From assembly GCA_949317995.1 (NCBI GenBank), contig OX439040.1, positions 72,451,972 to 72,515,971 of the forward strand: 64,000 bases of DNA, in the 5' to 3' direction. Shown one piece after another: positions 3,840 through 38,215 of this stretch (positions are counted from its first letter, which is position 1; each line of letters begins with the position of its first letter). The DNA is from Acholoe squamosa. Its lineage: Eukaryota > Annelida > Polychaeta > Phyllodocida > Polynoidae. The notes beneath the pieces were generated by a model. It saw only the letters and a list, made by a program, of their open reading frames with translations. It did no database searches and was not told where the DNA came from. A program made the translations under genes and the position numbers.

Positions 3840-4240
3840 AAGACTTGAAGCTATAAAAATATGACATAGAGCTATGCTTGCAGAATTGATCTGATGGCTA
3901 TCTATAGATGAATGAGGATAAAAATCATAAACCATAGTGATAGGATGCCTGTAATTTATAGGCCCCTTTACCATAGGGACAGGCGCTGCCCATGCAGAAT
4001 GACAGAAAGGATATGCTCTATAGTTGGGTCATGACCATACAATTTACTGTCTATATACCTCTTGACAGACCTGGCTTGCTGACCTGGGATGCCAAACCTC
4101 TTGAGAGCAAAGAGGCCTAACATTCAAAGAAGGCCACTCATGAATACTTTATGTGCTAAGCCCTTGTTGCAAATCATCAAAATTCGCAACAAGTGTTTCC
4201 TTTCAAGCATTGTATCATACTGTCTTCTGTTAAAGGCAGT
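3840..4240 (+). repeat. Dispersed repeat E, copy 1
   Basis: This is a diverged copy of a repeat of about 300 bp. It is found in the same orientation at 21960-22260 and 28090-28390, and inverted at 43940-44230, 53560-53800 and 63690-63990. The core landmark is the CTGACCTnnGnTGCCAAAC string followed by an AAGGNGGCTNNTCA-like run and a poly-pyrimidine region. No reading frame is conserved among all copies. Confidence 0.6.
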
Positions 4241-4590
4241 TGCATGAATAATTCCCAATAATTCTTTTGGGAAACTGTAAGGTACACAGATTCAACTCAG
4301 GCTCCTTGGACACTGAACATACATCAAGGATTTTTAGTATTGGTAGCACAATTATTTTCATTATGATCTGGCTCGGAAGGTTGGAGTAACACATTCAATG
4401 TACAAACTGCTAAAGCTGCCTTGCAATGGAATGTATCATTCAGTGAGGAAAAATTATTATTGCAGACAACAGCAATACACAATATATCTCACAATTATAT
4501 ATTTGATGTTGATTTTGATTATGAGCAAATAGCAGAGAGAATAGCAGTCCATTAAACAATCACACTTAGGATATTGCGGACTGTTCATGT

Positions 4591-5279
4591 ATGTCTTTAA
4601 GGGATAAATTCAAGAAAGGTTTTGCTGTAGTGCATATGAATGCCAGAAGTGTAAGAAATAAATTTACTAAGATAAAAGAAAATTTTGATAAAAGTCATAT
4701 TGACATTATTTTATTCTCAGATACATGGTTAAACCAAACTGACTCTAGTGATTTATATAGCTTCCCTAGGTATAACCTATTTCGAAAAGACAGGATCAGT
4801 ATTTTCAGGGGAGGTGGTTTATGTGCACATATGGATGAGGGATTATCATGGTCTGTAGACATGTCCAAACAATTAAATAGAACTAATGAACACATAGAGA
4901 TTCAGTGGTTGCAGTCGGCAAAGGGTACCAGCAAAAAATGTATTATTTGCAATGTCTATAGGCCTCTATCTGGTAATTTAGTGGAATTCTGTAATACAGC
5001 ACGTACTTTATTTTTGCAAATTGACAACCTAGATAGTTATGATGTATTTAATGTTAACATGCTAGCCAATACCCCAGAGAAAGAACATTCTTAGAGAAAC
5101 ATTTGATCACTTTCATTTTGTCCAACTTATAAATGAGGTAACAACTACATCAGGTACTAATACATGTATCGATTTAATATTCTCAAACTGTGACAATATC
5201 ATTTCTTGTGGACCTCTAAATATTCACTTATCTGATCATCTTCCTATCCATGTTCAAAGGTATCAAATACATGTAAAGA
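4591..5279 (+). pseudogene. AP-like endonuclease domain of the CR1-like ORF2
   Basis: The domain nicks target DNA to prime reverse transcription. The first frame, 167 codons from ATG 4591, holds VVHMNARSVRNKF (the N of the NxRS motif), ILFSDTWLN, GGGLCAHM and CNVYRPLSG. It runs into a stop at about 5094. After a frameshift the domain continues at 5100-5279 with GTNTCIDLIFSN and HLSDHLPIHV, the conserved C-terminal D and SDH motifs. Two catalytic positions look damaged: the Glu of the usual SETWL is Asp, and the usual GDFN reads NVNM. The protein is therefore inactive even apart from the frameshift. The upstream part of ORF2 is missing. Confidence 0.88.
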
Positions 5280-5323
5280 AGAATTATAGAACTTTTTTAG
5301 GCAAGTCTTATAACAATTTTGAT

Positions 5324-13825: not shown

Positions 13826-14685
13826 ATGGCCCTTCCGGCCAAGGCCACCCTTAAGACAAAAAGGGCTACTAAGCAAACAGCTCGTGCAGTTAGAACATTA
13901 AGGAGTGTTGCCACTGTGACGGTTGCCCCTGGTTGTGCAAATACAGTGGTTATACCACCACCTGCACAACCTAAAGACAAAACTGTAACAAAACTGTAAC
14001 GCCGGCATGATGTATCAGGCGAGGTCACCATTATGGACCCATGTTAAGGACCACACTACTGTGAATGACACCAATAGGTCGCATGCTCCAATACCTCTCA
14101 GAGAGTATCAATCCTTGAGGACCACATAGCCCACATTAAGAGGGACGTAGGGGGAATTAATGCAAAATTGGACTTGCTTATAGACTCAAATTTCCCCCCT
14201 GAACACCTCCAGGGCCCATAGCACTCCAAGGCGGGGAAAATCCTCATGCCGCGTGCTGGAATTCTCAGCCCGCTAGCCTAAGTCCAACCCTGCCCGCCTA
14301 CCATTCATACTCGACAACATGCCTACACTACGATAACTTCAGACAGCACCAGGAGTGGGCGAGTACATCAGTAGGGAGCTTCTTAAGGAGAAATATCAAC
14401 TTCAATCAACCAAGGGTAAGGCCATCTTCATTAATAACCCTTTCCAGACTCAATTTCATGCAAAACCATACATGTACCTGGAAAGATCTGGTTGTTATAC
14501 CCTAAAGCAAAAGCTGGACTCCTGCCCCTCTCTCACAGAACTCGAATACATTAATGCACTGTCATGCATGCTTACAAAACCAGAGGCCTATGAACCCAAG
14601 AACCTCCAGTATATGCTCGAGCATTTAGCAGAAGTTACAAAGGACGCCAAGGAGTGCCACTGGCCAGGCGTTGACTATGGTGGAC
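13826..14685 (+). pseudogene. Gag-like ORF1 remnants of the Ngaro-like element
   Basis: An ATG at 13826 opens a basic N-terminus (MALPAKATLKTKRATKQT) that stops at 13999. A helical segment follows in another frame near 14116-14220 (HIAHIKRDVGGINAKLDLL). A third segment begins at 14355 with VGEYISRELLKEKYQLQ and includes LQYMLEHLAEVTKDAKECHW, which resembles the shared C-terminal domain of DIRS-type Gag. Frameshifts separate the pieces. Assignment rests on position and general resemblance. Confidence 0.6.
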
Positions 14686-14873
14686 ATGTACATGTGTTCT
14701 ATATCAATGAGGCGGCCGTACAGGTACTAAATACCGGTAGGGGTCATGATCCGGTATTATTAGACTGCGCCAGGAGTACATGGATGATACAAGCAATGTA
14801 CAACATTACTGTAGCATATTACCACATCCCGGGTGTTGAAAATGTTCTAGCAGATAACCTGAGCTGAGCCCAC
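14686..14873 (+). pseudogene. RNase H C-terminal fragment of the Ngaro-like element
   Basis: The frame reads HVHVFYINEAAVQVLNTG, then RSTWMIQAMYNITVAYYHIP and GVENVLADNLS. This is the typical end of the RNase H domain of DIRS and Ngaro elements (the family usually has sDN, HIPG and N..AD.LSR). The Asp of the usual DN is replaced here by IN. The fragment is fused in frame to a gag-like sequence at its 5' side, which marks the deletion joint. It cannot be active. Confidence 0.82.
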
Positions 14874-14916
14874 ATGGATAGCAAGTATTATCAGGCTGCA
14901 AATGATCAAATAATTA

Positions 14917-15839
14917 ATGATAAACTCGCTGTTATTGCACCATGTGACTATTTTCTCAAATGCATCCAACCTCGCATTGCTTGCAGATCCGGTGCTAGGC
15001 TGGCTACAGCGATGTGCAGCATCCCGGCAGGAGCAGGCCAGGGCAGCAGGAGCAATCAAAAACCAGCTATCCACTATGAGGTCCTACCTCGCCTTCGCCT
15101 TCTCAATGCAAATCGACCCCAGCTACCCCAGCTACCAAGCGATGACCGCATACCTGGAGTACCTGTCTCCTGGATCTGTTCAGACATCCCAAGATCAGGC
15201 TGGCACTCGAAGCACTCAAAAGAGACAAAATATATGTACCAAAACCCAAGCTCCCACTACCGATGCAGACACTCAGGGCGGTCCTAGTACAGTACAAACA
15301 GGACCCTGAGGGCCGGGTGCTCAGGGCAGTGGTACTCCTACTCTATTACGGACAGTCAGAGTTACTCCCTCAGTCAATGCATTCAACTATACCTACCACC
15401 TCACAAGAGGAGATGTAAGGCTGACCCCCCAGTTTGGCATGGTGAGGATCAAAGCAGGACCAAGTGAGGGAAGTGACAGTACCCCCAGTGCACCCCGCCA
15501 AGTACTGCCCCCTCACAGCACTCCTCCAGGTCCAGCAGGAGACACCGACCCTGTCACCACGGGACCCTATTTTTATGTTCACAGACACAAAGGCCCCCAT
15601 TCCTCTGTCATACATGAACACACAATGGCAGGCAGTACTGAAGGCCCTCAACATACCGACCGTGCCTTTCAGCCTACATTCACTCAGAAAGGCCGTGGCC
15701 ATAGAGGCCACGAGCAGGGTGTACGGACCAACAGGTCATGGACCATGGCGAGTGGACATCAGGGGCATACAAGGCATATACACACAGACCCCAGTACACC
15801 CAACGTCAGATGGCCATTGCAGCCATGCTTAACCAGTGA
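14917..15839 (+). pseudogene. Tyrosine recombinase of the Ngaro-like element
   Basis: This enzyme integrates a circular DNA copy of the element. The N-terminal core-binding half reads ADPVLGWLQRCAASRQEQAR, then TMRSYLAFAFSMQIDPSYPS and AMTAYLEYLSPG. After frameshifts, VVLLLYYGQSELLPQS marks the first Arg box, with Gln where Arg is expected. The second box is intact, HSLRKAVA at 15677-15700 (H-x-x-R). One frame over, DHGEWTSGAYKAY (15741-15779) supplies the HGxW box and the nucleophilic Tyr, followed by THRPQYTQRQMAIAAMLNQ and a stop at 15837-15839. At least three frameshifts and the lost Arg make it a pseudogene, but the recombinase identity is clear. Confidence 0.88.
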
Positions 15840-16300
15840 CTATTGTCCTATTTTACCATAAACTGACTCCACAAGACTATTCTTATAAATGTTATCCAAC
15901 CATGTCTTTTAATCAATCAGGTCTTATATATACAATCTCACCATTCAAAATATTCCCACCACCACCCTCATCTACCAGCTTGTCCTTTCTTCTTTCACTT
16001 CTCGGCAGGTTTGCCCATATTTTACATTTATTATACACCCACACCTTAAATGTCATCGTATTTAATTCTTAAATCCTCTTCACCCTTATCATTTCACTCA
16101 ATATCGTTCAGTACCATATTTTACATTTATCATACATAACTATATATGTGTTGTACTATTATGCATATCACTATTAATTCATTCATATCTACAAAACCGG
16201 TATAAATGTACTTGTGTATATATACCTTATTATTCACCGGTTGGTCCTACTAAATACAACACACATGGTTTATTAGTACTAAATATAATAAACTTTTTAT

Positions 16301-18162: not shown

Positions 18163-18169
18163 TAGAACA

Positions 18170-19121
18170 CTGATCGCCTGACGCAGACTGCACAGGTCAC
18201 AATTTGTCTCCCACAAGATATGTATGAAGGCATGTCGAATAAGGTTGACGCTCTCATATTTGGTTCGTAAACTCCACTTGACATGCGTAATGAAGACATG
18301 TCACATATTTCTGATCCATTCACCTGAGTGCTAGGTAATACTGTGAGACAATTATTTACGGGTCAAGAGCAGTCAATAGCTATGTACCAATGGTTCAACA
18401 AGACAGGCCTATAATAGAAGGCAGGGGATATTATAGTCCCACAGGCCTGCAACACTAAGGTGCTTTTTCCTATCTACAGCACTTCTACTTGACTGAGGAC
18501 CTCTATGCAGTCCATAAGACAAGGGCATGGAGGTGCATGGCAATGCCATATGTCTCCCTATACTGTAGTTACTGAAATTATAGATTGTGGGTTGGAATAC
18601 AGTCCTTTGGTATTTTCACTGACCCACACATAAGGTGTCTGACCTCTCAAGTTGAAGTATTCAGGATGGTGGGTGTCTATTTTGATATTCAATAACAAAT
18701 GCAAATTTAACAATGAAATAGAATTCACTACCATTCATTGATAGTATTTACAGACCTTAGTGATCTATTCTTCATGAAAACTAAATGACACAGATACATC
18801 AAATGGCTCAAGTGTTAGTAGTACTTCTTGGTAGTGATTAATCCTGGTACCAAAATGGTTGTTTGCCCCATCTAGTGGAATATCCTAGAACAGTTATGTA
18901 TGTCAAGCCATCACATGTCAAGTGCCTTTGACATGGCTGTGACCCTAGTCAACTCACAGATAACGTGGCATTTTAAGGCATGTCAAATTATATGAGGATT
19001 ACTGTGTGTTACAGTTGTCATGGTGACATATGTGCACATGTCCTAATGACATGTGCTCTATGTGTCAAATCAAGTTGACATGGGTATACATGTCACTTTG
19101 TCAGGAAGAATATTTTCAGTG
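18170..19121 (+). mobile_element. 968-bp TA element, copy in unit 1 (left end clipped)
   Basis: Same sequence as 23025-23992 and 34798-35765. It ends in TTTTCAGTG followed by TA. The interior is dense in GACATG/CATGTC and TGTCAAATCAAGTTGACATG palindromes. No transposase is encoded. Confidence 0.82.
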
Positions 19122-19960
19122 TATGTCTGTGCTCATGCTGAGCTGTCAGGAAATTGGAAGAACACCGGGGAGGAACTACACTAATTAAACATCCCCCCTA
19201 TCTCATGCAGTTAGCCATTCAGACATCATGTTAAAATGCCCTACACCAAAACTGCATTTGCAAAGGGAAAAGAGAATGAGATAGAAAAAAAGTATTGTTT
19301 GTTGAAAGCTTCACTTTCCCTTCCTCGATTCTAAGGGCTTGACCAGATAGAACATTGAGTGGCCAGCAGGTGGGCAATCAGTGGAATTGCTCCTATTTCT
19401 GTTATTCCCTGAAACGAGCAGGTGAGTAGCACACTGGAAAGCTCTCTATAGAAAAATGTGAAAAGGGTATCTGGAATTGGATATAGACCTGATGAACAGT
19501 CTAGATAGTAAAACTAAGATGAAATATCCAAAATATTAGGAGAATGAAACACATATTCCATATTTCTATCTTAAAAGTTAGAAACATTTATTATAGTGAT
19601 ATTTGCTGAATTCTCAGACAATCTCCTCTACCGCAAGTACGATACCATTTTATTATCTTAACCTAAGGTTTTTCATCTTGTGTACACCCACAATCATTTT
19701 GTATCATGAAAGCTTACAAACTGTTTCTCATTATTTTCGTCTACATAAAGAAATGTTTACTCTGTATAAAAGATATGGAATTATTCAAAAAGGCAATGCT
19801 GGAATTTAGCTGAAATATTAGTTAGCCTATGTTCACTTATAGCTTGTTCAAACAGCATTTTAGGTAGCTGGTGCATGCCCAACCTACCATTGCCTCCTGC
19901 GCCTGAGGTATTCTGAAGAAGAATTGGGTTAGAGAAGAAAAAGGTAATAGAAGAAAGGCA
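19122..19960. other. Unit 1 stretch without a gene
   Basis: This corresponds to 23993-24863 of unit 2. The frame at 19603-19809 (70 codons ending KRYGIIQKGNAGI) is preserved in unit 2 at 24478-24708, but the duplication is too recent for that to show selection. No family is recognised. Confidence 0.55.
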
Positions 19961-19990
19961 CGTACTACAGAGCCCTGGAGGTGACATTTC

Positions 19991-19991
<1 letters not shown>

Positions 19992-20077
<86 letters not shown>
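19992..20077. repeat. (TATC)n(TA)n microsatellite
   Basis: About nine TATC units followed by about 24 TA units. It lies just inside the left end of the compound foldback. Confidence 0.95.
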
Positions 20078-20080
<3 letters not shown>

Positions 20081-20439
20081 GAGTGCCTTATATATTACCT
20101 ATGATAATTACTTCATTCTACTTGTTATGTATAACTAGCCATCTTATATACATAACACAATTGGTGCTAATGGTGGTTACATATATAGACCTGTATTTAA
20201 GCATAAGCAGACTCTCTGTGTTGGCTGGGTTTGAGCCTTATGTATAACCAGAAGGTTGGAGTGCTAGTTGCTATGGTCAGGAATTTCCATAGTAACAGGA
20301 CATGATCATCTACAGTGTGGACCAGCACCTGCACCACGGGAAAGTTCTTCCAGGCAGGAAGTCTGACCCCCTGTACGAGCCTTGGCTTCCTGCACAATCC
20401 TGTACAAACTACGATCCTGTACACCCCCCCTACCCCCTG

Positions 20440-20730
20440 TGCTATCCCTATACAACCCTGTACAACCCCTGTACGATCCCTGTATGATTCTGTATGATCC
20501 CTGTATGATCCTATACAATCCATGTATGATCCCTGTACGATCCATGTATTACCTGCTGATGTACGATGTACAGGCACCATACAGGGTTGTACAGGGATCA
20601 CACAGGGATTGTACAGGAGAATTGTGCAGGATCATACAAGGGTTGTAGAGGTAGTGTACAGGGTTGTGCACAGGCAGTGTACAGGGTATTGTACTGGTAG
20701 TGTACAGGTAGTGTACAGGTAGCATACAGG
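20440..20730. repeat. 11-bp minisatellite in mirrored orientation
   Basis: The left half consists of CCCTGTAYGAT units. From about 20573 the right half consists of their inverse (GTACAGGGAT and GTACAGGTAGT units). The whole forms a long imperfect hairpin. Because 11 is not a multiple of 3, all frames stay open in a repeating way, which explains the cluster of overlapping frames on both strands. Confidence 0.85.
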
Positions 20731-20949
20731 TACACAGGTAGCATGCACAGGCCACCAGTCTGGAAACCGATGCCATGACATCCTGACAACAAGTGGTTGC
20801 TGAGTGACCAGCAAGCATCCAGGCTATTTATAGTAACAGTTTTAGTCTGTCTTATTTATATATATCTGTGGTTATACATAAGAGAAACAGCAAGCAGAGA
20901 GAAGTGGGTCAATATACATAACACTCATATAGTAGGGAGGTATAAACAT

Positions 20950-21180
20950 GGGGGTGGGAGGGAGTGTTCCATGTTCCATGGAGCTCCATGCTGCTTCATG
21001 CTCCAATCTCTGTGTTGCTTTATGTTCCATGCTCCATAATGCACCATATTCCATCATGCTCCTTAGACATAAGAGCTCCATGGTGCTCCTTGTTCTGTGG
21101 TGCTCTATGCTCCCTTCCCCATGCCCCTCTTCCTCTCTCACTCCTTTCCTCTCCTTCCTCTTACCCTGTATTTTTTCTTT
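20950..21180 (+). repeat. CCATGCTCC-type low-complexity tract
   Basis: Degenerate 10-bp units around CTCCATGCT and GTTCCATG give way to a pyrimidine-rich run (CCTCTTCCTCTCTCACTCC). The same tract lies at 26766-27020 in unit 2. Confidence 0.75.
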
Positions 21181-21216
21181 CCCTCCTTCCGTGCCCATTC
21201 CTTCAGATAGTAAGTA

Positions 21217-21219
21217 GTA

Positions 21220-21286
<67 letters not shown>
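21217..21286. repeat. (TA)n microsatellite
   Basis: An uninterrupted TA run just inside the right end of the compound foldback. It produces spurious Ile-Tyr frames on both strands. Confidence 0.95.
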
Positions 21287-21289
<3 letters not shown>

Positions 21290-21314
21290 GTCACCTCCAG
21301 GGCTCCGTAATACG

Positions 21315-22973
21315 CTGCATGTGCTGTGAACCTTGTCTATATGGTGTATTAAAGCACCTCTCATCCTCGCCAGTACTCTACATTATAGGGTGTCTGTAGT
21401 TCTTTAGTACGATAAGCCAACTGGTGCAGAAAATAATTTGATAGATTCTCAAAACCTTATACAGTTTTCTTTCTTGCATTTAAGGTGAAAATACCTCTGT
21501 AAAACCTCTCCCAGAGGATTTTGGCAGAGGTTTATGGTAATAAAAGTACAGCACAGGACAGCTGTTTCAAAACACATTTTTTTCATATTTATGTAGAAGA
21601 AGAGTAATGTACCAAGCAATACCAACTACATTGGTGTATATTGGATTGGCCTGCAGGTAATCTATAGTAAAGCAGGCATGATTTTGGATGGTAAGTGAGG
21701 TAACCATTGGATGGTAAGTGAGGTGTTCCACTGTTGGCTTAAAAGTAATGGTGACATGTCTAGGTTTGCAAGAGTACAGTTTAGGGATATTGGTCCTATG
21801 TGTCTGCCTAATATGATACACAATCAATATATTGTTCACCTTATTTGTCTTGATACAGATCTTTGTTTATGTTGGAGCCAAGGTATTGCCACAGGAGAGG
21901 TCAGAGTGTTCTTTTAAACTAAACTGGAAAACCAGAAAAATAATGTACACTGTGAAAGCTGGAGGTCCCGGGAAGGTCTAACCAGAATCATGAACACCCT
22001 CGGGAGAGCTATAGCCACTCTGCATGCAGAGTGACGAAGGCTTCCTGCTCTGTATCTTGGTCACGATCATACACTCCTAATGGGCCTGGCTCACTGACCT
22101 TTGGGTGCCAAACTACTTCCTTCAGAGGAAGTATCCTCAACCTGTGAAAAGGGCTGCTCATAAACTATTTTTATGCAAAACCTTTGTTGCTTCTTTTGTG
22201 TTTCCTTTTTAGGCTATATACTAAACATCCTTACTTTAATTGCATTTGCATCAATAATTCTTCATGGCCCATGGATATTGCAAAGAACCGGAGATTCAGC
22301 ACAGAATCCCCGGCGACTACTTCCTGAGTTTAGAAACATCCTATAAGCCACATAGGATGGAGATATATTGAAGTGGGACCAGGAGTTTCTGAGATGTTAT
22401 GAGGCACAATGTCTAAAGCCATCATCCATGTCATATTGCATATGGGCCAAGCTCTGGGAGTGAACAGAAAAAAAAGAGACAGTAGCAAATAAACTCATCC
22501 ATCAGAGACTACCAGTTCATAATTACCTCATGAATATAGATGGTTAAAATAGTGATTATTGGTTGCAGCTCTTGGAGGCTTCCTCTGATGTTGTTGATTG
22601 CCATGATTGACAACTGATTCTTGTCAGTTAAACACTTGAAGGACTGCATAACACCACAAGGTTCATCCTTTGTCACATTCTTTACTTGTAGGATAATTAA
22701 GAGAGGGTTTATCTAAGTCTCCCATGCTCATACATCATCAGAATTAGAAAGGCTAAAACAACCAAATGACAAAAACAAGCAAATGACAAAAACAACCAAA
22801 TGACAAGCTTTCTGAGCAATGGCAGGATTATTAGCCTTAATTGTACCAGTAGGGCCATTAGCTGGCCCTAAGGCAACCGGTTCACAGAGAAAATATTCTT
22901 ACTCACATGAGTCTAGACCCAGACTCATGTCGCCAAAATAAGTATTGTTTGAGACTCAGCCTGATCCTTGGAC
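21315..22973. other. Rest of unit 1: repeat E copy and possible exon relic
   Basis: Repeat E lies at 21960-22260. On the minus strand at about 22528-22690 the frame reads PCGVMQSFKCLTDKNQLSIM, then NNIRGSLQELQPIITILTIY and IHE, directly before a GTAATT donor-like site. The unit 2 counterpart is 28745-28960. I do not recognise the peptide. Three AACAACCAAATGAC-like repeats occur near 22757-22806. From 22868 on, the first arm of the 29.1-kb foldback is present. Confidence 0.5.
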
Positions 22974-23024
22974 TCTACATGTACTCTACACTATATCATT
23001 ATCGTGATTGTGTGAATGTGTCTA

Positions 23025-23992
23025 CACAGAGAGAAGAACACTGATCACCTGACGCATACTGCACAGGTCACAATTTGTCTCCCACATGACATGTATGAAG
23101 GCATGTCGAATAAGGTTGACGCTCTCATATTTGGTTCGTAAACTCCACTTGACATGCATAATGAAGACATGTCACATATTTCTGATCCATTCACCTGAGT
23201 GCTAGGTAATACTGTGAGACAATTATTTAAGGGTCAAGAGCAGTCAATAGCTATGTACCAATGGTTCAACAAGACAGGCCTATAATAGAAGGCAGGGGAT
23301 ATTATAGTCCCACAGGCCTGCAACACTACGGCACTTTTTCCTATCTACAGCACTTCTACTTGGCTGAGGACCTCTATGCAGTCCATAAGACAAGGGCATG
23401 GAGGTGCATGGCAATGCCATATGTCTCCCTGTACTGTAGCTACTGAAATTATAGATTTTGGGTTGGAATAGAGTCCTTTGGTATTTCCACTGACCCACAC
23501 ATAAGGTGTCTAACCTCTCCAGTTGAAGTATTCAGGATGGTGGGTGTCTATTTTGATATTCAATAACAAATGCAAATTTAACAATGAAATAGAATTCACT
23601 ACCATTCATTGATAGTATTTACAGACCTTAGAGATCTATTCTTCATGAAAACTAAATGACACAGATACATCAAATGGCTCAAGTGTTAGTAGTACTTCTT
23701 GGTAGTGATTAATCCTGGTACCAAAATGGTTATTTGCCTCATCTAGTGGAATATCCTAGAACAGTTATGTATGTCAAACCATCACATGTCAAGTGCCTTT
23801 GACATGGCCGTGACCCTAGTCAACTCACAGATGACCTGGCATTTTAAGGCATGTCAAATCATATGAGGATTACTGTGTGTTACAGTTGTCATGGTGACAT
23901 ATGTGCACATGTCCTAATGACATGTGCTCTATGTGTCAAATCAAGTTGACGTGGGTATACATGTCACTTTGTCAGGAAGACCTTTTTCAGTG
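23025..23992 (+). mobile_element. 968-bp TA element, full copy in unit 2
   Basis: Begins CACAGAGAGAAGAACACTGA after TA (23023-23024) and ends CCTTTTTCAGTG before TA (23993-23994). Its length, 968 bp, equals that of the copy at 34798-35765. The ends are only loosely inverted (CACAGAGA versus CACTGAAA). Non-coding. Confidence 0.85.
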
Positions 23993-24884
23993 TATGTCTG
24001 TGCTCATGCTGAGCTGGCAGGAAATTGGAAGAACACCGGGGAGGAACTACACTAATTAAACATCCCCCCCTATCTCATGCAGTTAGCCATTCAGACATCA
24101 TGTTAAAATGCCCTACACCAAAACTGCATTTGCAAAGGTAAAAGAGAATGAGATAGAAAAAAGGTATTGTTTGTTGAAAGCTTCACTTTCCCTTCCTCGA
24201 TTCTAAGGGCTTAACCAGATAGACTCATGAACATTGACAGTAAGTGGCCAGCAGGTGGGCAATCACTGGCATTGCTCCTATTTCTGTTATTCCCTGATAC
24301 GAGCAGGTGAGTAGCACAATGAAAAGCTCTCTATAGAAAAATGTGAAAAGGGTATCTGGAATTGGATATAGACCTGATGAACAGTCTAGATAGTAAAACT
24401 AAGATGAAATATCCAAAATATTAGGAGAATGAAACACATATTCCATATTTCTATCTTAAAAGTTAGAAACATTTATTATGGTGATATTTGCTGAATTCTC
24501 AGACAATCTCCTCTACCGCAAGTACGATAACAATTCTAAAATACCGTTTTATTATCTTAACCTAAGGTTTTTCATCTTGTGTACACCCACAATCATTTTG
24601 TATCATGAAAGCTTACAAACTGTTTCTCATTATTTTCGTCTACATAAAGAAATGTTTACTCTGTATAAAAGATATGGAATTATTCAAAAAGGCAATGCTG
24701 GAATTTAGCTGAAATATTAGTTAGCCTATGTTCACTTATAGCTTGTTCAAACAGCATTTTATATAGGTAGCTGGTGCATGCCCAACCTACCATTGCCTCC
24801 TGCACCTGAGGTATTCTGAAGAAGAATTGGGTTAGAGAAGAAAAAGGTAATAGAAGAAAGGCACGTACTACAGAGCCCTTATCT

Positions 24885-24885
24885 A

Positions 24886-24937
<52 letters not shown>
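24885..24937. repeat. (TA)n microsatellite
   Basis: A short TATC run followed by about 25 TA units. Confidence 0.95.
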
Positions 24938-24940
<3 letters not shown>

Positions 24941-25059
24941 GAGTGCCTTATATATTACCTATGATAATTACTTCATTCTACTTGTTATGTATAACTAGCC
25001 ATCTTATATACATAACACAATTGGTGCTAATGGTGGTTACATATATAGACCTGTATTTA

Positions 25060-25147
25060 GCGTTTAATCAACGTTATGATAGAGCACGCGGTCGTGGAAT
25101 ATTGAACCATAGACCCACAAGTGCTCTATCATAACTTGATTAAAGCA
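25060..25147. repeat. Short hairpin element
   Basis: GTTATGATAGAGCAC on the left and GTGCTCTATCATAAC on the right pair perfectly. The symmetry continues outward through TTTAATCAA and TTGATTAAA. The loop is about 30 nt. Confidence 0.8.
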
Positions 25148-25398
25148 TTTATCGAACATATTTCTCCATTTTGTATCAATTTCTTACCTTATAACCCCAG
25201 AATTAATCCAGGAGAAGACATTTTGTAAGTGCATGCGATCCGCTAGCTTTGCCAAACCGCCATGGCCATGTTGTTGTTCTGTCCAACATACCTCCACCTT
25301 TACACTCATTTTTCGGGTATAATCCAATAATGTCAAGTCCTGTACTTCTAACACCGCCAAATATACGATATCTAGTTGGTGTTCGCCTTCATTTTGTC

Positions 25399-25621
25399 TC
25401 CATTTTCTTCGAAATAAATAAGAATCCATTGATTTTCCATACCGATCCAACGCACACGGCCCGGTACACGGCCATTGCTTCTTGTTGACAGAGCGGGTAG
25501 GTGCCCGGATGTAAAAACTAGGTCAGCCACACGTCGAGCAAGGAATGGCCGGACGGGGCGGGTCCCGACTCGTATCGATGTGGCAAATCAATGGATTCTT
25601 ATTTATTTCGAAGAAAATGGA
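25399..25621. mobile_element. Foldback with 37-bp perfect arms
   Basis: Arms 25399-25435 and 25585-25621 (TCCATTTTCTTCGAAATAAA, then TAAGAATCCATTGATTT) are exact inverses. The arm sequence is related to that of 41497-41755, which carries AAGAAGAATCCAATGATTTT. These are therefore two members of one foldback family. Confidence 0.85.
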
Positions 25622-25774
25622 GGAAGTTGGCATGGCATGTTCATCTAGGATATCTAAGGATGGTTCTGTGTTAATAACTCCACCAGGCTCCATATATTCT
25701 AGGCTATCTAGGTGTGTAAACTTCAGGTATGTCGGAAAACTTTTTCAAATCCTCCATGTGCAGTGGTTTCTAGC

Positions 25775-25830
25775 ACCGGTCTGCTTGGTATAGTGGACAG
25801 TGAGCTCGTCGGGGATCGATTCCCCGTTGA
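25775..25830 (+). mobile_element. tRNA-like (SINE head) fragment
   Basis: An A-box-like TGGTATAGTGG (25786-25796) is followed after only about 15 nt by a B-box-like GGATCGATTCC within 25811-25825. The spacing is too short for a normal tRNA, so this is a deleted SINE head or a chance match. Confidence 0.5.
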
Positions 25831-26269
25831 ACCCAAACGGTTTTAACTGGAAAACTATGGCGTGGTTGACTTTGTATACTTCGCCAATTTATTATCATGT
25901 CCAGATTGAAACTAGCAGCCTCTTGAAGATGAAGAAAAGGTCTCAGAGTGTGTTATGGTTGGATAAGGAACTGGGGTTATGAGCAAAAAAGCACAGTTGA
26001 GGCTGAGATAATTAGATAATTAAGCATAAGCAGACTCTCTGTGTTGGCTGGGTTTGAGCCTTATGTATAACCAGAAGGTTAGAGTGCTAATTGCTATGGT
26101 CAGGAATTTCCATAGTAACAGGACATGATCATCTACAGTGTGGACCAGCACCTGCACCACGGGAAAGTTCTTCCAGGCAGGAAGTCTGACCCCCTGTACG
26201 AGCCCTGGCTTCCTGCACAATCCTGTACAAACTACGATCCTGTACACCCCCCCCTACCCCCTGTGCTAT

Positions 26270-26560
26270 CCCTATACAACCCTGTACAACCCCTGTACGA
26301 TCCCTGTATGATTCTGTATGATCCCTGTACGATCCTATACAATCCATGTATGATCCCTGTACGATCCATGTATTACCTGCTGATGTACAGGCATCATACA
26401 GGGCTGTACAGGGATCACACAGGGATTGTACAGGAGAATTGTGCAGGATCATACAAGGGTTGTAGAGGTAGTGTACATGGTATTGTACGGGCAGTGTACA
26501 GGGTATTGTACTGGTAGTGTACAAGTAGTGTACAGGTAGCATACAGGTACACAGGTAGCG
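26270..26560. repeat. 11-bp minisatellite, unit 2 copy
   Basis: Mirror-oriented CCCTGTAYGAT and GTACAGGNAGT units, corresponding to 20440-20730 with small unit-number differences. Confidence 0.85.
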
Positions 26561-27039
26561 TGCACAGGCCACCAGTCTGGAAACCGATGCCATGACATCC
26601 TGACAACAAGTGGTTGCTGAGTGACCAGCAAGCATCCAGGCTATTTATAGTAACAGTTTAGTCTGTCTTATTTATATATAACTGTGGTTATACATAAGAG
26701 AAGCAGCAAGCAGAGAGAAGTGGGTCAATATACATAACACTCATATAGTAGGGAGGTATAAACATGGGGGTGGGAGGGAGTGTTCCATGTTCCATGGAGC
26801 TCCATGCTGCTTCATGCTCCAATCTCTGTGGTGCTTTATGTTCCATGCTCCATAATGCACCATATTCCATCGTGCTCCTTAGACATAAGAGCTCCATGGT
26901 GCTCCTTGTTCTGTGGTGTTCTATGCTCCCTTCCCCATGCCCCTCTTCCTCTCTCACTCCTTTCCCCTCCTTCCTCTTACCCTGTATTTTTTCTTTCCCT
27001 CCTTCCGTGCCCATTCCTTCAGATAAGTAGTAATGTGAA

Positions 27040-27050
27040 GAGAGACAGAC

Positions 27051-27090
<40 letters not shown>

Positions 27091-27200
27091 GACAGAGAGG
27101 AGACAGAGAGAGAGAGAGAGAGAGAGAAAGAGAGGAGGAGACAGAGAGGAGAGACAGAGAGAGTCAAAGACAGAAGCAGACAGAGACACAGAGAAAGGGT
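27040..27200. repeat. (GA)n purine-rich tract
   Basis: Long GA runs interrupted by GACAGAGAGGAGACAGAG units. The tract is absent from unit 1. It gives rise to the 168- and 218-codon low-complexity frames on the two strands (Arg-Glu or Ser-Leu repeats), which are not genes. Confidence 0.92.
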
Positions 27201-27385
27201 GGATAGGGTGCCAAAGGGGGGGGGAGACTTCCTGGCTGGATGAACTTTCCCACACTGCAGGTGCTCCCAGTGAATGCTATTTATAGTAACAGTTTTAGTT
27301 TCTCTTATGTATATACCTCTTCTTGTTATGCATAAGACACACATCCAGACAAAACAGAAGTCTATTTATGCTTATGCAACTGGGC

Positions 27386-27388
<3 letters not shown>

Positions 27389-27445
<57 letters not shown>
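27389..27445. repeat. (TA)n microsatellite
   Basis: A pure TA run at the right end of the compound foldback, unit 2. Confidence 0.95.
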
Positions 27446-27448
<3 letters not shown>

Positions 27449-28089
27449 GTCACCTCCAGGGCTCCGTAATACGCTGAATGTGCTGTGAACCTTGTCTATA
27501 TGGTGGATTAAAGCACTTCTCATCCTCGCCAGTACTCTACATTATAGGGTGTCTGTAGTTCTTTAGTACGATAAGCCAACTGGTGCAGAAAATAATTTGA
27601 TAGATTCTCAAAACCTTATACAGTTTTCTTTCTTGCATTTAAGGTGAAAAAAAACCTTTTGGCAGAGGTTTATGGTAATAAAAGTACAGCACAGGACAGC
27701 TGTTTCAAAACACATTTTTTTCATATTTATGTAGAAGAAGAGTAATGTACCAAGCAATACCAACTACATTGGTGTATATTGGATTGGCCTGCAGGTAATC
27801 TATAGTAAAGCAGGCATGATTTTGGATGGTAAGTGAGGTAACCATTGGATGGTAAGTGAGGTGTTCCACTGTTGGCTTAAAAATAATGGTGAAATGTCTA
27901 GGTTTGCAGGAGTACAGTTTAGGGATATTAGTCCTATGTGTCTGTCTAATATGATACACAAACAATATATTGTTCACCTTATTTGTCTTGATACAGATCT
28001 TTGTTTATGTTGGAGCCAAGGTATTGCCACAGGAGAGGTCAGAGTGTTTTTTTAAACTAAAGTGGAAAACCAGAAAAAAAAAGTACACT

Positions 28090-28960
28090 ATGAAAGCTGG
28101 AGGTCCCGGGAAGGTCTAACCAGAATCATGAACACCCTCGGGAGAGCTATAGCCACTCTGCATGCAGAGTGACGAAGGCTTCCTGCTCTGTATCTGGGTC
28201 ACGATCATACACTCCTAATGGGCCTGGCTCACTGACCTTTGGGTGCCAAACTACTTCCTTCAGAGGAAGTATCCTCAACCTGTGAAAAGGGCTGCTCACA
28301 AACTATTTTTATGCAAAACCTTTGTTGCTTCTTTTGTGTTTCCCTTTTAGGCTATATACTAAACATCCTTACTTTAATTGCATGTGCATCAATAATTCTT
28401 CATGGCCCATGGATATTGCAAAGAACCAGAGATTCAGCACAGAATCCCCGGCGACTACTTACGTAAAACCCCTCATATAATCCACATCCTGAGTTTAGAA
28501 ACATCCTATAAGCCACACTAGGGGATCTGAAATGGCCTATAAACAGGGCTTTATGATATCAAGTTCCAGATATATTAAAGCTGCCTTATGAAAACATAGG
28601 ATGGAGATATATTGAAGTGGGACCAGCAGCTTCTAAGATGTTATGAGGCACAACCCATCATCCATGTCATATTGCATATGGGCCAAGCTCTGGGAGTGAA
28701 CAGGAAAAAAAGAGACAGTAGCAAATAAACTCATCCATCAGAGACTACCAGTTCATAATTACCTCATGAATATAGATGGTTAAAATAGTGATTATTGGTT
28801 GCAGCTCTTGGAGGCTTCCTCTGATGTTGTTGATTGTCATGATTGACAACTGATTCTTGTCAGTTAAACACTTGAAGGACTGCATAACACCACAAGGTTC
28901 ATCCTTTGTCACATTCATTTTTACTTGTAGGATAATTAAGAGAGGGTCTCCCATGCTCAT
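28090..28960. repeat. Repeat E copy and possible exon relic, unit 2
   Basis: Repeat E lies at 28090-28390. The minus-strand frame at 28745-28960 corresponds to the 22.5-kb relic and ends at the same GTAATT site. It differs from unit 1 by few bases plus short indels upstream (VKMNVTKDE here, VKNVTKDE there). Confidence 0.55.
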
Positions 28961-29107
28961 ACATCATCAGAATTAGAAAGGCTAAAACAACCAAATGACA
29001 AAAACAACCAAATGACAAAAACAACCAAATGACAAGCTTTCTGAGCAATGGCAGGATTATAAGCCTTAATCGTACCAGTATAGTAATATCATAAAGCAAC
29101 CGGATCA

Positions 29108-29363
29108 CAGAGAAAATATTTTTACTCACATGAGTCTAGACCCAAACTCAGGCAATGTCGCCAAAATAAGTATTGTTTGAGACTCAGCCTGATCCTTGGA
29201 TGATACTCAGGCAAAGCAAGAGTATCATCCCAGGATCAGCCTCAAGATCTGCCTGAGTATCATTCAAGGATCAGGCTGAGTCTTAAACAATACTCATTTT
29301 GGCGACATTGCCTGAGTCTGGATCTAGACTCATGTGAGTAAGAATATTTTCTCAGTGTTCGTA
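29108..29363. mobile_element. Foldback with arms of about 105 bp
   Basis: The left arm runs from CACAGAGAAAATATTTTTAC to GATACTCAGGCA. The right arm (about 29255-29363) is its inverse with few mismatches and ends TATTTTCTCAGTG. The short loop contains AGAGTATCATCCCAGGATCA. Unit 1 retains only the left arm (22868-22973), so one duplication breakpoint lies in this hairpin. Confidence 0.87.
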
Positions 29364-31650: not shown

Positions 31651-31960
31651 AATTCATGATGTGTTTGTGCCACCTTTGTTAGAGACACAAATAAAAGTTC
31701 CTAAATTACATTTCTGATGTCAGGGAATCCAACCAGGGCACTCAGATTATGTGACTGGTAGCCATTTGGAATTATTGATTAATATGGCTGCCAGGGTTCT
31801 AAGAAAAACTTGAAAATTGCATATATATCTTCCCTTCCAATCATGTTAGAGAGGCAAATAAAAGTTCCTAAAGTATATTTTTGAGGTCAGGGAATCCAAC
31901 AAGGGCACTTAGAATAATGTGGCTGGCAGCCATATTGAATTAGTAATAACACTTAAAAAT
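31651..31960 (-). repeat. Repeat F, tandem pair (about 168-bp period)
   Basis: Two neighbouring units share AAATAAAAGTTCCTAAA, GTCAGGGAATCCAAC and GGCACTNAGAATNATGTG-like runs. The inverse of the same unit flanks the 2.93-kb TIR element at 34480-34603 and 37536-37770. Confidence 0.8.
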
Positions 31961-32200
31961 CAGTAGTAAATCACAGTGTAATATTCGGTAATGCAAGTCC
32001 TGTCTAGAAAGATGCCATGTCATCTCCAAATTATAAATGCCATGTCTTCTAAGAGGGAAAAGTAGAAATGATAAAGATCTAATACTTTCCTAAAAGGAAT
32101 AGAGTATGCTTGAAGAGATCCTTTATAGAGGTAATACATTGTCCCTCTCTGTAGAGTGGGAACATGAGAGAGGTAGTCACACCTCTCTACACTGCATATT

Positions 32201-32237
32201 AATGCAACCCTAAATTGTTTGCATTTAGGGTTGCATT
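32201..32237. repeat. Perfect 14-bp hairpin
   Basis: AATGCAACCCTAAA and its exact inverse are separated by a 9-nt loop. The CCCTAA motif is embedded but not tandem. Confidence 0.8.
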
Positions 32238-33034
32238 AAATTTCATTTAATGCTTAGAAAAACTGTCCTCATAGGTTACATCGGATCTATAGGGCTCAGT
32301 ACTGAGGCCTAGTAGGTCTGCCATTGCTTGATCCGGCACTGGGCAAGATAAGCACTGATAACAACCAGCATGATAGGTACCAGGTATTACATAATGTACC
32401 AGAAAAAATACTGTGAAGATATTGACATACATTCTACACTAATGCAATGACCTAGTCCAGAGCCTAGATGTAAAATGAAATTAAGAGGAAAGTGTCTCCT
32501 AAATCCAGCATAAGGAGGAGCTGAAACCAAGAATCAAATCAGATTCAAAAGATAGGAAACTACTACGGGATAAGCTAGAGACTTGTCTCAACCCTCTCCA
32601 TGATGCACACCATCCTGCGGGTTTTGTAAACATTGTAACTGGGAAGGTGGTCGTTCATTAATCTGGGAATGTAGATGATTCTGTTTGTTTGGGCAAAGGG
32701 CAAATAGATACATTTGAAAGGGCTTGGCCCAAAGGATTCACCAAGAAAGTTGTTACAATGTCCTTATCCCGCAAGCATATCAAGGCAGCTGATACAAAAG
32801 TGTACAACACTGAGCTGATATACACCAGGGCCATGGGGCTTCAGTGCTGTTTACGTGATTATGACACATAGACACTAATGGCTCATGAGCTGGAGCCACA
32901 GCGAATTCTCTCAAGGTAGAGATGTCGGCAGGGCACTACAATACCATTATGTGCAGGATTACCTAGACAGATTTCGACACAATATCTTTAGTTATCTATG
33001 TACAAACCAGTGAAGTGTACCTGATATTTGACAG

Positions 33035-33205
33035 GTAAAAAATGATAGATAATCAATAGTTTTAAGGAACAAGATTCAGTTGATAGGATGATACAATGAT
33101 CAAAGACAAAAAAGCTTCATGTAAATCAATTGTAGATAAATAAAATTCTATTAGAAATGATGAAATTACTTCTGTAATAGATTACTAACATTTGTTTCTT
33201 GGCAG
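33035..33205 (+). other. Relic spliceosomal intron in the pseudogene
   Basis: The coding text YLIFD is followed by CAG|GTAAAAAATG at 33034/33035. After 171 bp a TTTGTTTCTTGGCAG acceptor ends at 33205, and reading resumes exactly in frame as R-YNDGGIK (codon AG|G). This GT-AG intron shows that the copy arose from genomic DNA, not from a processed transcript. Confidence 0.82.
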
Positions 33206-33431
33206 GTACAATGATGGTGGTATAAAAGAATCTGGTAGAAATGGAAGAGATGAGGGGTCGAGTCAGGTCTACAACTTGTCCTGCACTTTCACCACAAAAA
33301 AAAGTACTGACTGTCAGCACCAACAAAAAGCAATTGAATTGATTGTGCAAAACATGATCTCCCACAAAGATGAACTCCCTTCAAGACTAGTAAGCACTGA
33401 CTGTGACCCTGCTCCTGTTGAATTGCACTTA

Positions 33432-33770
33432 AACTCGTCAATAAAGACGAGTTTAGGGTAGTCAAGGCCAAATGACGACCTAAACTCGTCATACTGACAA
33501 TACAAAGTCATCATACTGATGACTTAGGTGGTCAGGATGACGACCTAAAGTCATCATTTTGACAACCTAAAGCTGTAGATTTAGGTATTTTCAACCTGAG
33601 GACCTAAAGTCGTCTGCACTGACTAGTTTCGGGCCTCTCAGGTTTTCAGTGTAGGTCGCTGATACCAGCGACCAGTTTTTGCGACCAGAATTGTGGCTTA
33701 TTCCATATCAGAAAATCACGACCACTTTTTAGCGACCAATATTTTTGTGTTTAGCGACCTAAACTAAGAT
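33432..33770. mobile_element. Hairpin-rich insertion interrupting the pseudogene
   Basis: Between DPAPVEL and DEADTII there are about 340 bp made of short mirrored units: GACGACCTAAA, CTCGTCATACTGA, TTTAGCGACC. A 10-bp perfect hairpin (TAAACTCGTC, 6-nt loop, GACGAGTTTA) starts it at 33429-33455. It is probably a palindromic transposable element; clean terminal repeats were not established. Confidence 0.6.
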
Positions 33771-34320
33771 ATGGCCCATATGATGAGGCAGACACAATCA
33801 TCATCCAAAAATTGTGTCGGTAAAAAAAGACAAATTTCTTATAGTTGCAAATGATACTGATGTGTTTGTACTTCTCTGTCACTTTGTTTTCCATGGATCC
33901 ATACATTAAATGTCAAGTGGTAATGGATATTCTACTGTTCTCAAATCGCTAAAGCCAGGGAAACACTCCCTCAGTGCAATTGGAGAGAGCTCCCTTTGAG
34001 GATGTCTAGCAACAGGCATCTCAGTTTGTCTTAGCAAGTTATGGACATCTTACATGTGAATCCATGACAGCTGCCCGTCATAAGATATGGTCCAGCAAAA
34101 TATCGAGAAGCCTCAGTGGACCACCAAGGCTCAAAAGCCTGCCCCCAACAAATGAGGCTTTCCAGGAAAACATTCTCAGGGATCACCTACAATTTATATG
34201 CATGGAAATATGCCAATGAGCAAACCTCATCTCAGCTAGATCCTTTGCAGAATGGATGGACCAAGGGAGCAACAAGTGCATCCCAGTGATGAATATGCAA
34301 AATGTGAGGAAGAAAAGTTT

Positions 34321-34479
34321 GCTGATAACACATAAAAGAAACGGCAAACGAAATAGAAATGATACTATATCTACTTTCAGATTTTGATATTCATGGCTTT
34401 ATTATATTACATCCACATCAGAAATAAATGAAGGTGGCTAAGTTGGCTTTTCTATTTGATATATGAAAGCAATCATGTT
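34321..34479. other. A/T-rich stretch after the pseudogene
   Basis: No further family motif is seen; the expected C-terminal tail of the family is not visible. Confidence 0.4.
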
Positions 34480-34603
34480 ATTGGTGCAAAACCCATTATT
34501 TATTCAGAATGACTGCCAGCCTCATAGTTCTAAGTGCCCTGGCTGGATTCCCTGCCCTCAGGAATGTGTTTTAGGAACTTTTTGTTTGCGTCTTTAACAT
34601 GAT
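34480..34603 (+). repeat. Repeat F, left part of an interrupted unit
   Basis: Contains AAGTGCCCTGGCTGGATTCC, TTTAGGAACTT and AACATGAT. It ends at the TA target of the 2.93-kb element; the unit resumes at 37536. Confidence 0.8.
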
Positions 34604-34797
34604 TAGGGTAAAATTGGGTAGTATCGCGAACCAACACATGATACAACCAAAATATGCCTCCCCGAGTAAGGCACAGTGATCCGGCAGTGCCGGTTATGGC
34701 GTGTACAGATATGGACCATGGCCCCTCTCAGCACCCGTGGGAATGGCACTGGTTGAGGGATCGTATGGTGAGAGGTAGGGGTGCTGAAGACTATCTA

Positions 34798-35765
34798 CAC
34801 AGAGAGAAGAACACTGATCGCTTTGACACATACTGCACAGGTCACAATTTGTCTCCCACATGACATGTATGAAGGCATGTCAAATGAGGTTGACCCTCTC
34901 ATATTTGGTTCGTCAACTCCATTTGACATGCGTAATGAAGACACGTCACATATTTCTGATCCATTCACCTGAATGCTAGGTAATACTCTGAGACAATTAT
35001 GTAAGGGTCAAGAGCAGTCAATAACTATGTACCAATGGTTCAATCAAGGGAGGCCTATAATAGAAGGCAGGGGATATCATAGTCCCACAGGCCTGCAACA
35101 CTAAGGCACTTTTTCCTATCTACAGAACTCCTACTTGACTGAGGACCTCTATGCAGTCCATAAGACAAGGGCATGGAGGTGCATGGCAATGCCATATGTC
35201 TCCCTGTACTGTAGATACTGAGATTATAGATTGTGGGTTAGAATACAGTCCTTTGGTATTTTCACTGACCCACACATAAGGTGTCTAACCACTCCAGTTG
35301 GAGTATTCAGGATGGTGGGTGTCTATTTTGATATTCAATAACAAATGCAGATTTAACAATGAAATAGAATTCACTACCATTCATTGATAGTATTTACAGA
35401 CCTTAGTGATCTATTCTTCATGAAAACAAAATGACACAGATACATCAAATGTCTCAAGTGTTGGTAGTACTTCTTGGTAGTGATTAGTCCTGGTACCAAA
35501 ATGGTTGTTTGCTCCATCTAGTGGAATATCCTAGAACAATTATGTATGTCAAACCATCATGTCAAGTGCCTTCGACATGGCCGTGACCCTAGTCAACTCA
35601 CAGATGACATGGCATTTTAAGGCATGTCAAATCATATGAGGATTACTGTGTGCTACAGTGGTCATGGTGACATATGTGCACATGTCCCAATGACGTGTGC
35701 TCTCTGTGTCAAATCAAGTTGACATGGGTATACATGTCATTTTGTCAGAAAGACTTTTTTCAGTG
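34798..35765 (+). mobile_element. 968-bp TA element, copy nested in the 2.93-kb element
   Basis: Flanked by TA at 34796-34797 and 35766-35767. It begins CACAGAGAGAAGAACACTGA and ends GACTTTTTTCAGTG. Same length as the 23-kb copy, differing by scattered substitutions. Confidence 0.87.
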
Positions 35766-35805
35766 TAATGGTTTGGGTTGTATCGTGATGCTTTGGGCGG
35801 TATCG

Positions 35806-36436
35806 TACAGAGCCCCTAATAGGACATCCCAAATAAAAGATTTTCTGGAGAAAAAAATATTCTTGCAGCTACTGGACAGTTCTTGCGGGTACAGGAACAA
35901 AAATTCTTGCAGATGCACAAAACATTCTTGCGGATGCACAAAAAAATTCTAGCGGGTACACAAAATAATTCTTGTGGATGCACAAAACATTCTTGTGTTA
36001 CACAAAAAATTCTTGCAGGTACACGAAATAATTCTTGCAGGTGCACAAAATAATTCTTGCAGATGCACAAAACATTCTTGCCAATACTCAAAATAATTCT
36101 TGTGGATGCACAAAGATTTCTTACAGATGCACAAATATTTGTGTGGGTACACAAATCATCTTCCTTTAACTGCATGAATTACTTCTGCATCTGCAAGAGT
36201 ACTTTGTGCACCCACAAGAATTATTTGTGCACCCGCAAGAATGTTTGTGCACCCAAAAGAATTATTTGTGCACCCACAAGTATTATTTATGCACCTGCAA
36301 GAATGTTTGTGCACCCGCAAGAATTATTTATGCACCTGCAAGAATGTTTGTGCATCCGCAAGAATTATTTGTGCACCCACAAGAATATTTTTTTAGGGAA
36401 AAAATATTTTTGGTATGTCCTATTAGGGGCTCCGTA
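35806..36436. mobile_element. TIR element with mirrored 20-22-bp minisatellites
   Basis: The left end TACAGAGCCCCTAATAGGAC and the inverse of the right end TACGGAGCCCCTAATAGGAC are nearly identical; weaker symmetry extends about 35 bp further out on each side. The left half (35870-36130) is made of ATTCTTGCGGATGCACAAAA-type units. The right half (36190-36395) is made of the inverse GTGCACCCACAAGAATTATT units. The element as a whole is a giant imperfect hairpin. The long frames on both strands (Cys-Ala-Pro-Arg-Ile repeats) are produced by the minisatellite and are not genes. Confidence 0.88.
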
Positions 36437-37532
36437 GTATCGCGCATTTCACAATACAACCAAAATCTAATGCTTCTTCCCATAGGGCCTGTATCACGCA
36501 CATGCCTTCACACCTTTAGCCGTGTATAGCCGTGGTTCAGGTGTGAAAAAACGAGGGTCAGGGTGACTGCTTTCACACCTACCAGGTGTGGACTAATAGC
36601 CTGAATATTACACCAATGTGCCGTCATGCCTTTGGCTACCATGTGACTATGTTTCCTCACCTTAGTTATATTTCAAGTTTTCACTTTTTACCTTATATTA
36701 TGTGCGCAATATAAGAACAAGATGTGCGTTATACAGAGCTTATTTTAGTTACTACTGATCTCTATGGGAATATGCTATTAACACATTCAGGTCTATAGTG
36801 TTTTACACTAGATTTTGGGCATTAGGGGGTGTCATTACCTTTCAAAACTGTTTGAATCATGTTGATATTCCTACTAGAAGTGAAATGGTGGTGGTCTAAG
36901 CTAAACACATGGGTACAAATCCCGGAATCCTGATTGTCCGTATCTATTGTGATAAGGAAGATACAGCTTTGATTACATTGCATTCATATTCTCAAAAATA
37001 ATTATTTGATCAAACTTCAAACATGCATATTTCAGGAACCCCTTCATCAATTGAGATGAAATAAAGTGCATATTGTAGCAATTTAGAATGATCCACATGG
37101 TCACATGGTACCAAATTCATTTGGTTACCATGGCAACCAAATTCATGCAAAAAACACTATTTTCAGTACTTTGGTTGCCATGGCAAGCCGTTGAAAATGA
37201 ACCAAATACACAGAAATCTTTTCTGCCATATTTGTTTGCATGGAAAAATCTCAAAAGTAGGTTTTCACTGAAAAAAATAACATTATTTTACATTTTTTAT
37301 GATTTTTTGATTACATGGTATGGGTGACCGAATTTACAGCCTTGAGTACATATCATGCTAGTAAAATAGATATATAGTTCAGGTAACAGAGCAACATTGA
37401 AACATGAGTAGATATAATGTGGACAGCTGCTGCAAAAAGAATTTTTGAAAAATTTTTAAAACTTCAGCAATTAGGTCACTGTAAGTGCAGGTGTGTAATA
37501 CAATAACATGCACGATACTACCCAATTTTACC
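36437..37532. other. Interior of the 2.93-kb element, no gene seen
   Basis: A/T-rich sequence. A small direct repeat TGGTTACCATGGCAACCAAA / TTTGGTTGCCATGGCAAGCC lies near 37120-37190 around the palindrome CCATGG. No domain is recognised. Confidence 0.5.
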
Positions 37533-37535
37533 CTA

Positions 37536-37800
37536 GAAGGGAAGATTATGCAATTTTCAAGTTTTTTGTAGAACTCTGGGGGCAATATTGATTAATAATT
37601 CAAAATGGATGCCACCTACAAAATTCCAAGTGCCCTGGTTGGATTCCCTGACATCAGAAATGTACTTTAGGAACTTCTATTGTGTTTCTAACATGATTAG
37701 AAGCCGGGATATGCCATAAGTTCTTTTCTAGAAATCTGGCGGCCATCTTGAATATCTCAATTTCCCCAAAGGTGGCACAAACACATCATGCTGGAAATGA
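37536..37800 (+). repeat. Repeat F, right part and one further unit
   Basis: The interrupted unit continues to about 37595. A complete unit follows (AAGTGCCCTGGTTGGATTCC, CTTTAGGAACTTCT, AACATGATTAGAAG). At 37775 the run AAAGGTGGCACAAACACATC is the inverse of 31660-31680. Confidence 0.8.
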
Positions 37801-38215
37801 TTAACCAGACCCTATAGATGAACAGTTAACAGAGAAAAAAAGTTTATCGGGGAATTCTGGGTTGGGCTCAAAATCCCTCCTCCACTGCTGGACTATGGCA
37901 TACATAGATATGTAAATAACAATGTGACACAAATATGGCTATGATGAATTGCAGTTACATTTCAGAATCATTACAGGTCAGGGACTATAAATATGTGAAA
38001 CCAGAAACATGAGACTTGGATATGGTGTATTTGAGTTTGCCTGTTATCAATCATCATACTGTGGAGATTTAGATGATGTGCCACAAGACCATCTACATGT
38101 AAATTCCCAAATGACTTGGTACCGTAGCATTATAGAATGGGACTCTATACAACCATACTCTATAGTAAGCCCTCGATGAGAGAGGCCAGTGATGTGATCG
38201 TACACCTCATACCTC
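37801..38215. other. Non-coding, nothing recognised
   Basis: No repeat partner or frame stands out. Confidence 0.45.

Follow-up and report, generated by a model that had tools for sequence, protein, structure and literature searches.

The X in AcademX, a lineage of the Academ superfamily of DNA transposons, stands for an XPG-type nuclease. AcademX elements are described as generating target-site duplications of 3 or 4 bp and AcademH elements duplications of 9 or 10 bp, and this difference in length seems to be related to the encoded enzymes, helicase and nuclease (PMC10045372, in excerpt). In bivalves, Academ elements have been amplified and have a mean length of 5,565 bp (PMC10294476, passages). 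Short duplications are also given for other elements: ISL2EU generates AT duplications and has an accessory nuclease (YqaJ exonuclease), and PIF/Harbinger elements generate TWA duplications (PMC4482050, selected passages). For the DDE transposases as a whole, 20 superfamilies are listed for Repbase in a passage of a further account (PMC9587614).

Here, we describe a broken gene and the element around it in a window of 64,000 nucleotides from the polychaete Acholoe squamosa (the whole stretch of DNA that was analysed; all positions are those of the window unless a locus is named). The element is best read as a dead cut-and-paste DNA transposon and the broken gene as its own transposition protein, a reading to which we assign a probability of about 0.75. 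The gene remnant and the terminal inverted repeats (TIRs) around it are laid out as follows, with sister copies and relatives elsewhere in the genome denoted by L numbers.

31656..31950 (approximate), + strand: left TIR, outermost ~105 bp missing here, tandem subunits ~165 bp apart
32083..32294, + strand: upstream coding remnant, YFPKRN...LYTAY*CNPK, MLRKTVLIGYIGSIG (match to copy L028)
32383..32916, + strand: middle coding remnant with NDLVQSLDV..., IQHKEELK..., VYNTELIYTRAMGLQ and LMAHELEP, stops inside (translation, sister copies)
32967..33034, + strand: exon end, EVYLIFD and the AG of an Arg codon (translation)
33035..33205, + strand: 171-nt GT-AG intron, phase 2, in the Arg codon of FDR-YND (exon joining, sister copies)
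33206..33429, + strand: next exon, YNDGG...IELIVQNMISHKDELPSRL... (translation)
33430..33765, no strand: short repeat-rich insertion in the exon, ends approximate (absent from copy L026)
33766..34400, + strand: downstream coding remnant in several frames with DEADTIIIQ, DTDVFVLL, KPGKHSLSAIGES, LPPTNEAF and the tail EQQVHPSDE... (translation, sister copies, peptides of relatives)
34480..34604, - strand: right TIR, inner part
34604..37535, no strand: nested later insertion with a perfect 23-bp TIR, TAGGGTAAAATTGGGTAGTATCG, and TA at both ends
37536..37895, - strand: right TIR, outer part, with the terminus TAGTCCAGCAGTGG... at 37895

Translation of the reading frames confirms the ordered series of family motifs given in the preliminary description: all seven are present on the + strand and in the same order, i.e., VYNTELIYTRAMGLQ (within 32662-32868), LMAHELEP (in 32872-32916), EVYLIFD with the first two bases of the Arg codon (ending at 33034), IELIVQNMISHKDELPSRL (within 33206-33458), DEADTIIIQ (in 33755-33820), DTDVFVLL (in 33787-33906) and LPPTNEAF (in 34010-34216). 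The extent first proposed, 32480..34320, does contain these motifs, but the remnant is longer: matches to sister copies identify further coding pieces at 32083-32294, 32383-32547 and 34246-34400, and with sister coding pieces as queries the remnant (32083-34400) takes up almost all of the interval between the TIRs. It was rightly called a broken copy, being interrupted by stops and frameshifts, and the Cys-rich part is mostly gone from the downstream remnant. The insertion at ~33430-33765 was judged against L026, the sole copy aligned there. A short insertion rich in GACGACCTAAA-type repeats was noted here and for L079, and an 80-bp part, 76% identical, recurs upstream of the gene of the divergent relative L075.

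A colinear protein alignment is provided by peptides from L074 and L075, which lie on two other contigs. Three of five such peptides match the window at E<=0.01, in motif order and at the coordinates originally described; the matches fall at 32401-32892 (E 4e-24), 33808-33903 (E 0.003), 34001-34192 (E 4e-15) and 34034-34132 (E 3e-6), the last two overlapping each other. The remaining two peptides have no match in the window. Since 20 shuffles of the window in blocks of two bases gave 0 matches to these peptides, the motif series exceeds what is expected by chance.

The arrays of inverted repeats that had been placed on either side of the gene, at 31.65 and 37.8 kb, are real, but they form a single TIR pair, the right member of which is interrupted by the nested element. 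The pair is continuous only when 34604-37535 is taken out (alignment score 354 vs 221). This places the broken gene within a single element that extends from a truncated left end at ~31656 to a right end at 37895. The suggestion that the arrays might have carried the gene was a guess, and a correct one, as TIRs bracket the gene in the window and in sister copies. Another placement of the ends, at a 24-bp match (31656-31679 / 37768-37791) with a CATG duplication, was rejected because the repeats of sister copies continue to TAGTCCAGCAG.

The nested element contains an inverted-repeat array at ~35790-36450, and one part of it, 34794-35767, shares 94% identity with 23021-23994 and with 18164-19123. 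The window also has a large direct duplication in pieces (18164-22972 and 23035-29200), 92-97% identical and with unequal gaps between the pieces. A broken LINE-like element at 4570-7601 shows weak matches to Exo_endo_phos_2 and RVT_1, below the cut-offs. Open frames at 14337-15861 include the stretch HSLRKAVAIEA, which, we assume, recalls a tyrosine recombinase; the three frames scanned there gave no Pfam match. Rfam has 0 matches in the window.

The intron said to sit in the Arg codon of FDR-YND is found at 33035-33205: it is 171 nt long, runs from GT to AG and divides the codon as AG|G, and joining the exons across it gives ...VYLIFDRYND.... Intron sequence with a GT donor is retained at the same place in the sister copies L026, L028 and L032, which bears out that the gene is unprocessed. 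The acceptor AG is intact in the window only; L026 and L032 have AA in its place, and L028 has lost it by deletion. An unbroken gene was found in none of the 10 window-family copies examined. In the divergent L075, the same Arg codon contains a donor-like AG|GT, and two codons further on the frame closes; no acceptor was located for it. A retrocopy, i.e., a processed pseudogene, would be expected to lack introns, and the retention of intron sequence by the window copy and by three aligned sister copies speaks against it, as do DNA units bounded by TIRs; no evidence in support of this origin was found, and its probability is negligible.

The window copy has sisters elsewhere in the genome. A 261-bp piece of the gene yields 16 matches in the 1.48-Gb genome, at 10 loci including the window. 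Eight of the nine other loci have window-family TIRs next to the gene, five of them on both sides (L026, L028, L029, L031 and L034); three have them on one side (L030, L032 and L033), and at L027 the gene is present with no TIR on either side. When the window is counted, the gene is enclosed by two TIRs at 6 of 10 loci. Upstream exons and a Cys-rich tail can be seen in coding pieces of the sister copies, and both are mostly lost from the window copy. The gene-bearing copies L029 and L034, each with two ends, measure about 2.8 and 3.7 kb and are internally deleted. Such dispersed copies together with internally deleted derivatives are a mark of cut-and-paste DNA transposons with TIRs.

A defined end sequence on the TIRs is a second mark of this kind. 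In one table of termini, from which two chance rows (E 0.8 and 5.8) were excluded, all 12 outer termini start with TAGT, eight of them reading exactly TAGTCCAGCAGTGG, and seven of the nine ends listed for short loci read the same as the TAGT termini; no terminus was found at L035-L038. A TIR search returned at least 55 matches; five short derivatives (L069-L073) were examined. Both outer ends are present in L069, L070 and L073, the left end of L070 having TT instead of TA. A convincing gene match is absent from L069, L070, L071 and L073, and L072 retains coding remnants.

Five two-ended elements (L029, L034, L069, L070 and L073) were scored for target-site duplications, and four are bounded by an exact duplication of fixed length, 3 bp: CAT, CTA, GGA and TAT. 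The exception is L073, flanked by GAT/CAT; the gene-bearing L029 and L034 both have exact duplications. From base composition, at least four of five such duplications have a p of about 5e-7, a value that goes with a boundary chosen after the first two elements; two of the three later ones agree with that boundary. A TA duplication was considered and replaced by one of 3 bp, because bases beyond the TA also repeat.

These ends bear on the possibility that the window holds a dead ordinary host gene, duplicated along with flanking but unrelated repeats. The presence of an intron would suit such a history, as would L075, a more complete relative without TIRs in the fetched flanks. Against it, the gene is enclosed at unlinked loci by TIRs that share a defined terminus, and the two-ended L029 and L034 with their exact 3-bp duplications contradict it, leaving this origin highly improbable.

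A protein search gives at least 67 matches at E<=0.001, many of them with 30-55% identity. Four divergent loci were compared, L074 and L075 for their long open frames and L076 and L077 from matches of ~45% identity; over matched pieces, the relatives have 24-57% amino acid identity. Related TIRs or end repeats lie beside three of the four. L074, which has an open frame of 281 residues and is 50% identical to a window piece over 64 aa, carries its gene between TIRs at positions 3939-4264 (326 bp) and 6443-6774 (332 bp) of that locus, whose outer part matches the outer TIR of the window family (E 5e-9 and 2e-13); neither the extreme ends of L074 nor a target duplication could be made out. L077 has a related repeat on one side, downstream and inverted (E 1e-17), and L076 a weak one on one side, upstream (E 1e-5). 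The most complete relative, L075 (G000:C3:53025500-53033499), has N-terminal Cys pairs, a Cys-rich tail and at least one stop, with no TIR within ~4 kb on each side; it could be a decaying domesticated copy. The preliminary description had spoken of a copy of an uncharacterised metazoan gene. That it is a copy of an ordinary animal gene is not supported: the gene fills the TIR element, the sister copies share its layout and end repeats accompany three of four relatives, so the gene is best read as the transposon's own.

The main rival to this reading is gene capture, in which a TIR element using another element's transposase would on a single occasion have acquired an animal gene, intron included, and then amplified it as a Pack-type element. 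Several observations are in line with capture, such as the lack of TIRs around L075, the existence of short derivatives (four of five without a convincing gene match, L072 with coding remnants) and the fact that no transposase domain was recognised. Capture is also consistent with the divergence within the family, which is spread about equally over codon positions 1/2/3 (858/745/829 differences in 5,037 codon comparisons). Of 31 pairs compared with stop codons excluded, 25 have a dN/dS below 1 (range 0.48-2.41), which counts towards the transposon's own gene. The equal spread would be seen in copies that decay following a burst, and likewise in a passenger gene; taken as a whole, the substitutions fit an own gene and a passenger alike. 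However, the gene spans the interior of the element and is no mere patch in it, and the related end repeats beside three of four divergent relatives, on both sides only in L074, count against capture, because a single late capture does not predict them. We therefore regard capture as unlikely.

The transposon's own gene, by comparison, is supported by the long TIRs, the mostly 3-bp duplications, the dispersed gene-bearing copies, the short derivatives and the end repeats of the relatives, and it explains together why the gene is multi-copy, broken and intron-containing. Weighing against it are the TIR-less loci L027 and L075, the one-sided repeats of L076 and L077, the DDTG of L074, the equal spread over codon positions and the lack of a significant domain match. 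An intact element would have encoded a large protein, whose tasks would have been to bind the TIRs, to excise the element and to insert it elsewhere with a 3-bp stagger. The window copy would then have lost its left outer end, been broken by stops, frameshifts and deletions, and taken two further insertions. This copy itself is dead and ordinary; what changes is the standing of an uncharacterised gene family, which now probably encodes the protein of a transposon whose ends are defined and whose target duplication has been measured.

Summing the open stretches of L075 suggests an intact protein of roughly 1,000 residues, in which N-terminal Cys pairs would be followed by a central GIWxDMAIE, by D-x-C-A, (D/E)EAD and DDT(D) in a nuclease-like part, and by the Cys-rich tail. 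The acidic motifs D-x-C-A, (D/E)EAD and DDTD, which we take to be nuclease-like (PIN/XPG motifs), are partly conserved among copies and relatives; L074 has DDTG where other copies have DDTD. The relatives presumably resemble a group of multi-copy animal proteins, themselves uncharacterised, that contain IFDRY, HEEAD, DDTD and, at the C terminus, a Cys-rich (CXC-like) tail; the motif order of those proteins is presumably alike, and relatives within this genome keep it.

Domain searches with the window, copy and relative pieces gave no Pfam match at the curated cut-off, the best match below it being AAA_lid_14 (E 0.0026, N-terminal piece of L028), and NCBIfam gave none at its curated cut-off either. 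A DDE/D transposase was thus not matched at cut-off in Pfam or NCBIfam. The PDB returned no significant match (best E 0.067), and neither a family profile nor a solved structure of a PIN/NYN or XPG/FEN-type nuclease was significantly matched by sequence. A search of viral contigs found no relatives, and one further pattern search found nothing. Two viral pattern matches and 15 prokaryote matches were judged unrelated (best tblastn E 0.012 among these 17 loci), and plasmid matches in nine records (E 2-6) were taken as chance.

How, then, does the window family compare with the named kinds of transposon? Like ISL2EU and PIF/Harbinger (PHIS) elements, it has short duplications, and ISL2EU adds an accessory nuclease; however, the AT duplications of ISL2EU and the TWA duplications of PIF/Harbinger, as given in the passages drawn on above (PMC4482050), differ from the CAT, CTA, GGA and TAT of this family. 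Among the papers listed in a literature search, none was found that links this gene family to a transposon. It is doubtful, though conceivable, that the family belongs to a DNA-transposon superfamily beyond the 20 DDE ones of Repbase, and that its movement depended mainly on a large nuclease protein, PIN/XPG-like and without a recognised Pfam domain; if so, the uncharacterised animal genes of the family would be either transposons or genes domesticated from them. Set against its published description, the AcademX lineage of the Academ superfamily appears to be the closest named kind. The window family is like AcademX in having TIRs, and where AcademX has a nuclease, it has motifs presumed to be nuclease-like, without a profile match. 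The internally deleted L029 and L034, at about 2.8 and 3.7 kb, compare with the bivalve Academ mean of 5,565 bp (PMC10294476, same passages), and the 3-bp duplications of the family fall within the 3 or 4 bp given for AcademX in the excerpted account (PMC10045372). If the nuclease part is confirmed, this family would bear on how Academ-type elements fix the length of their target duplications.
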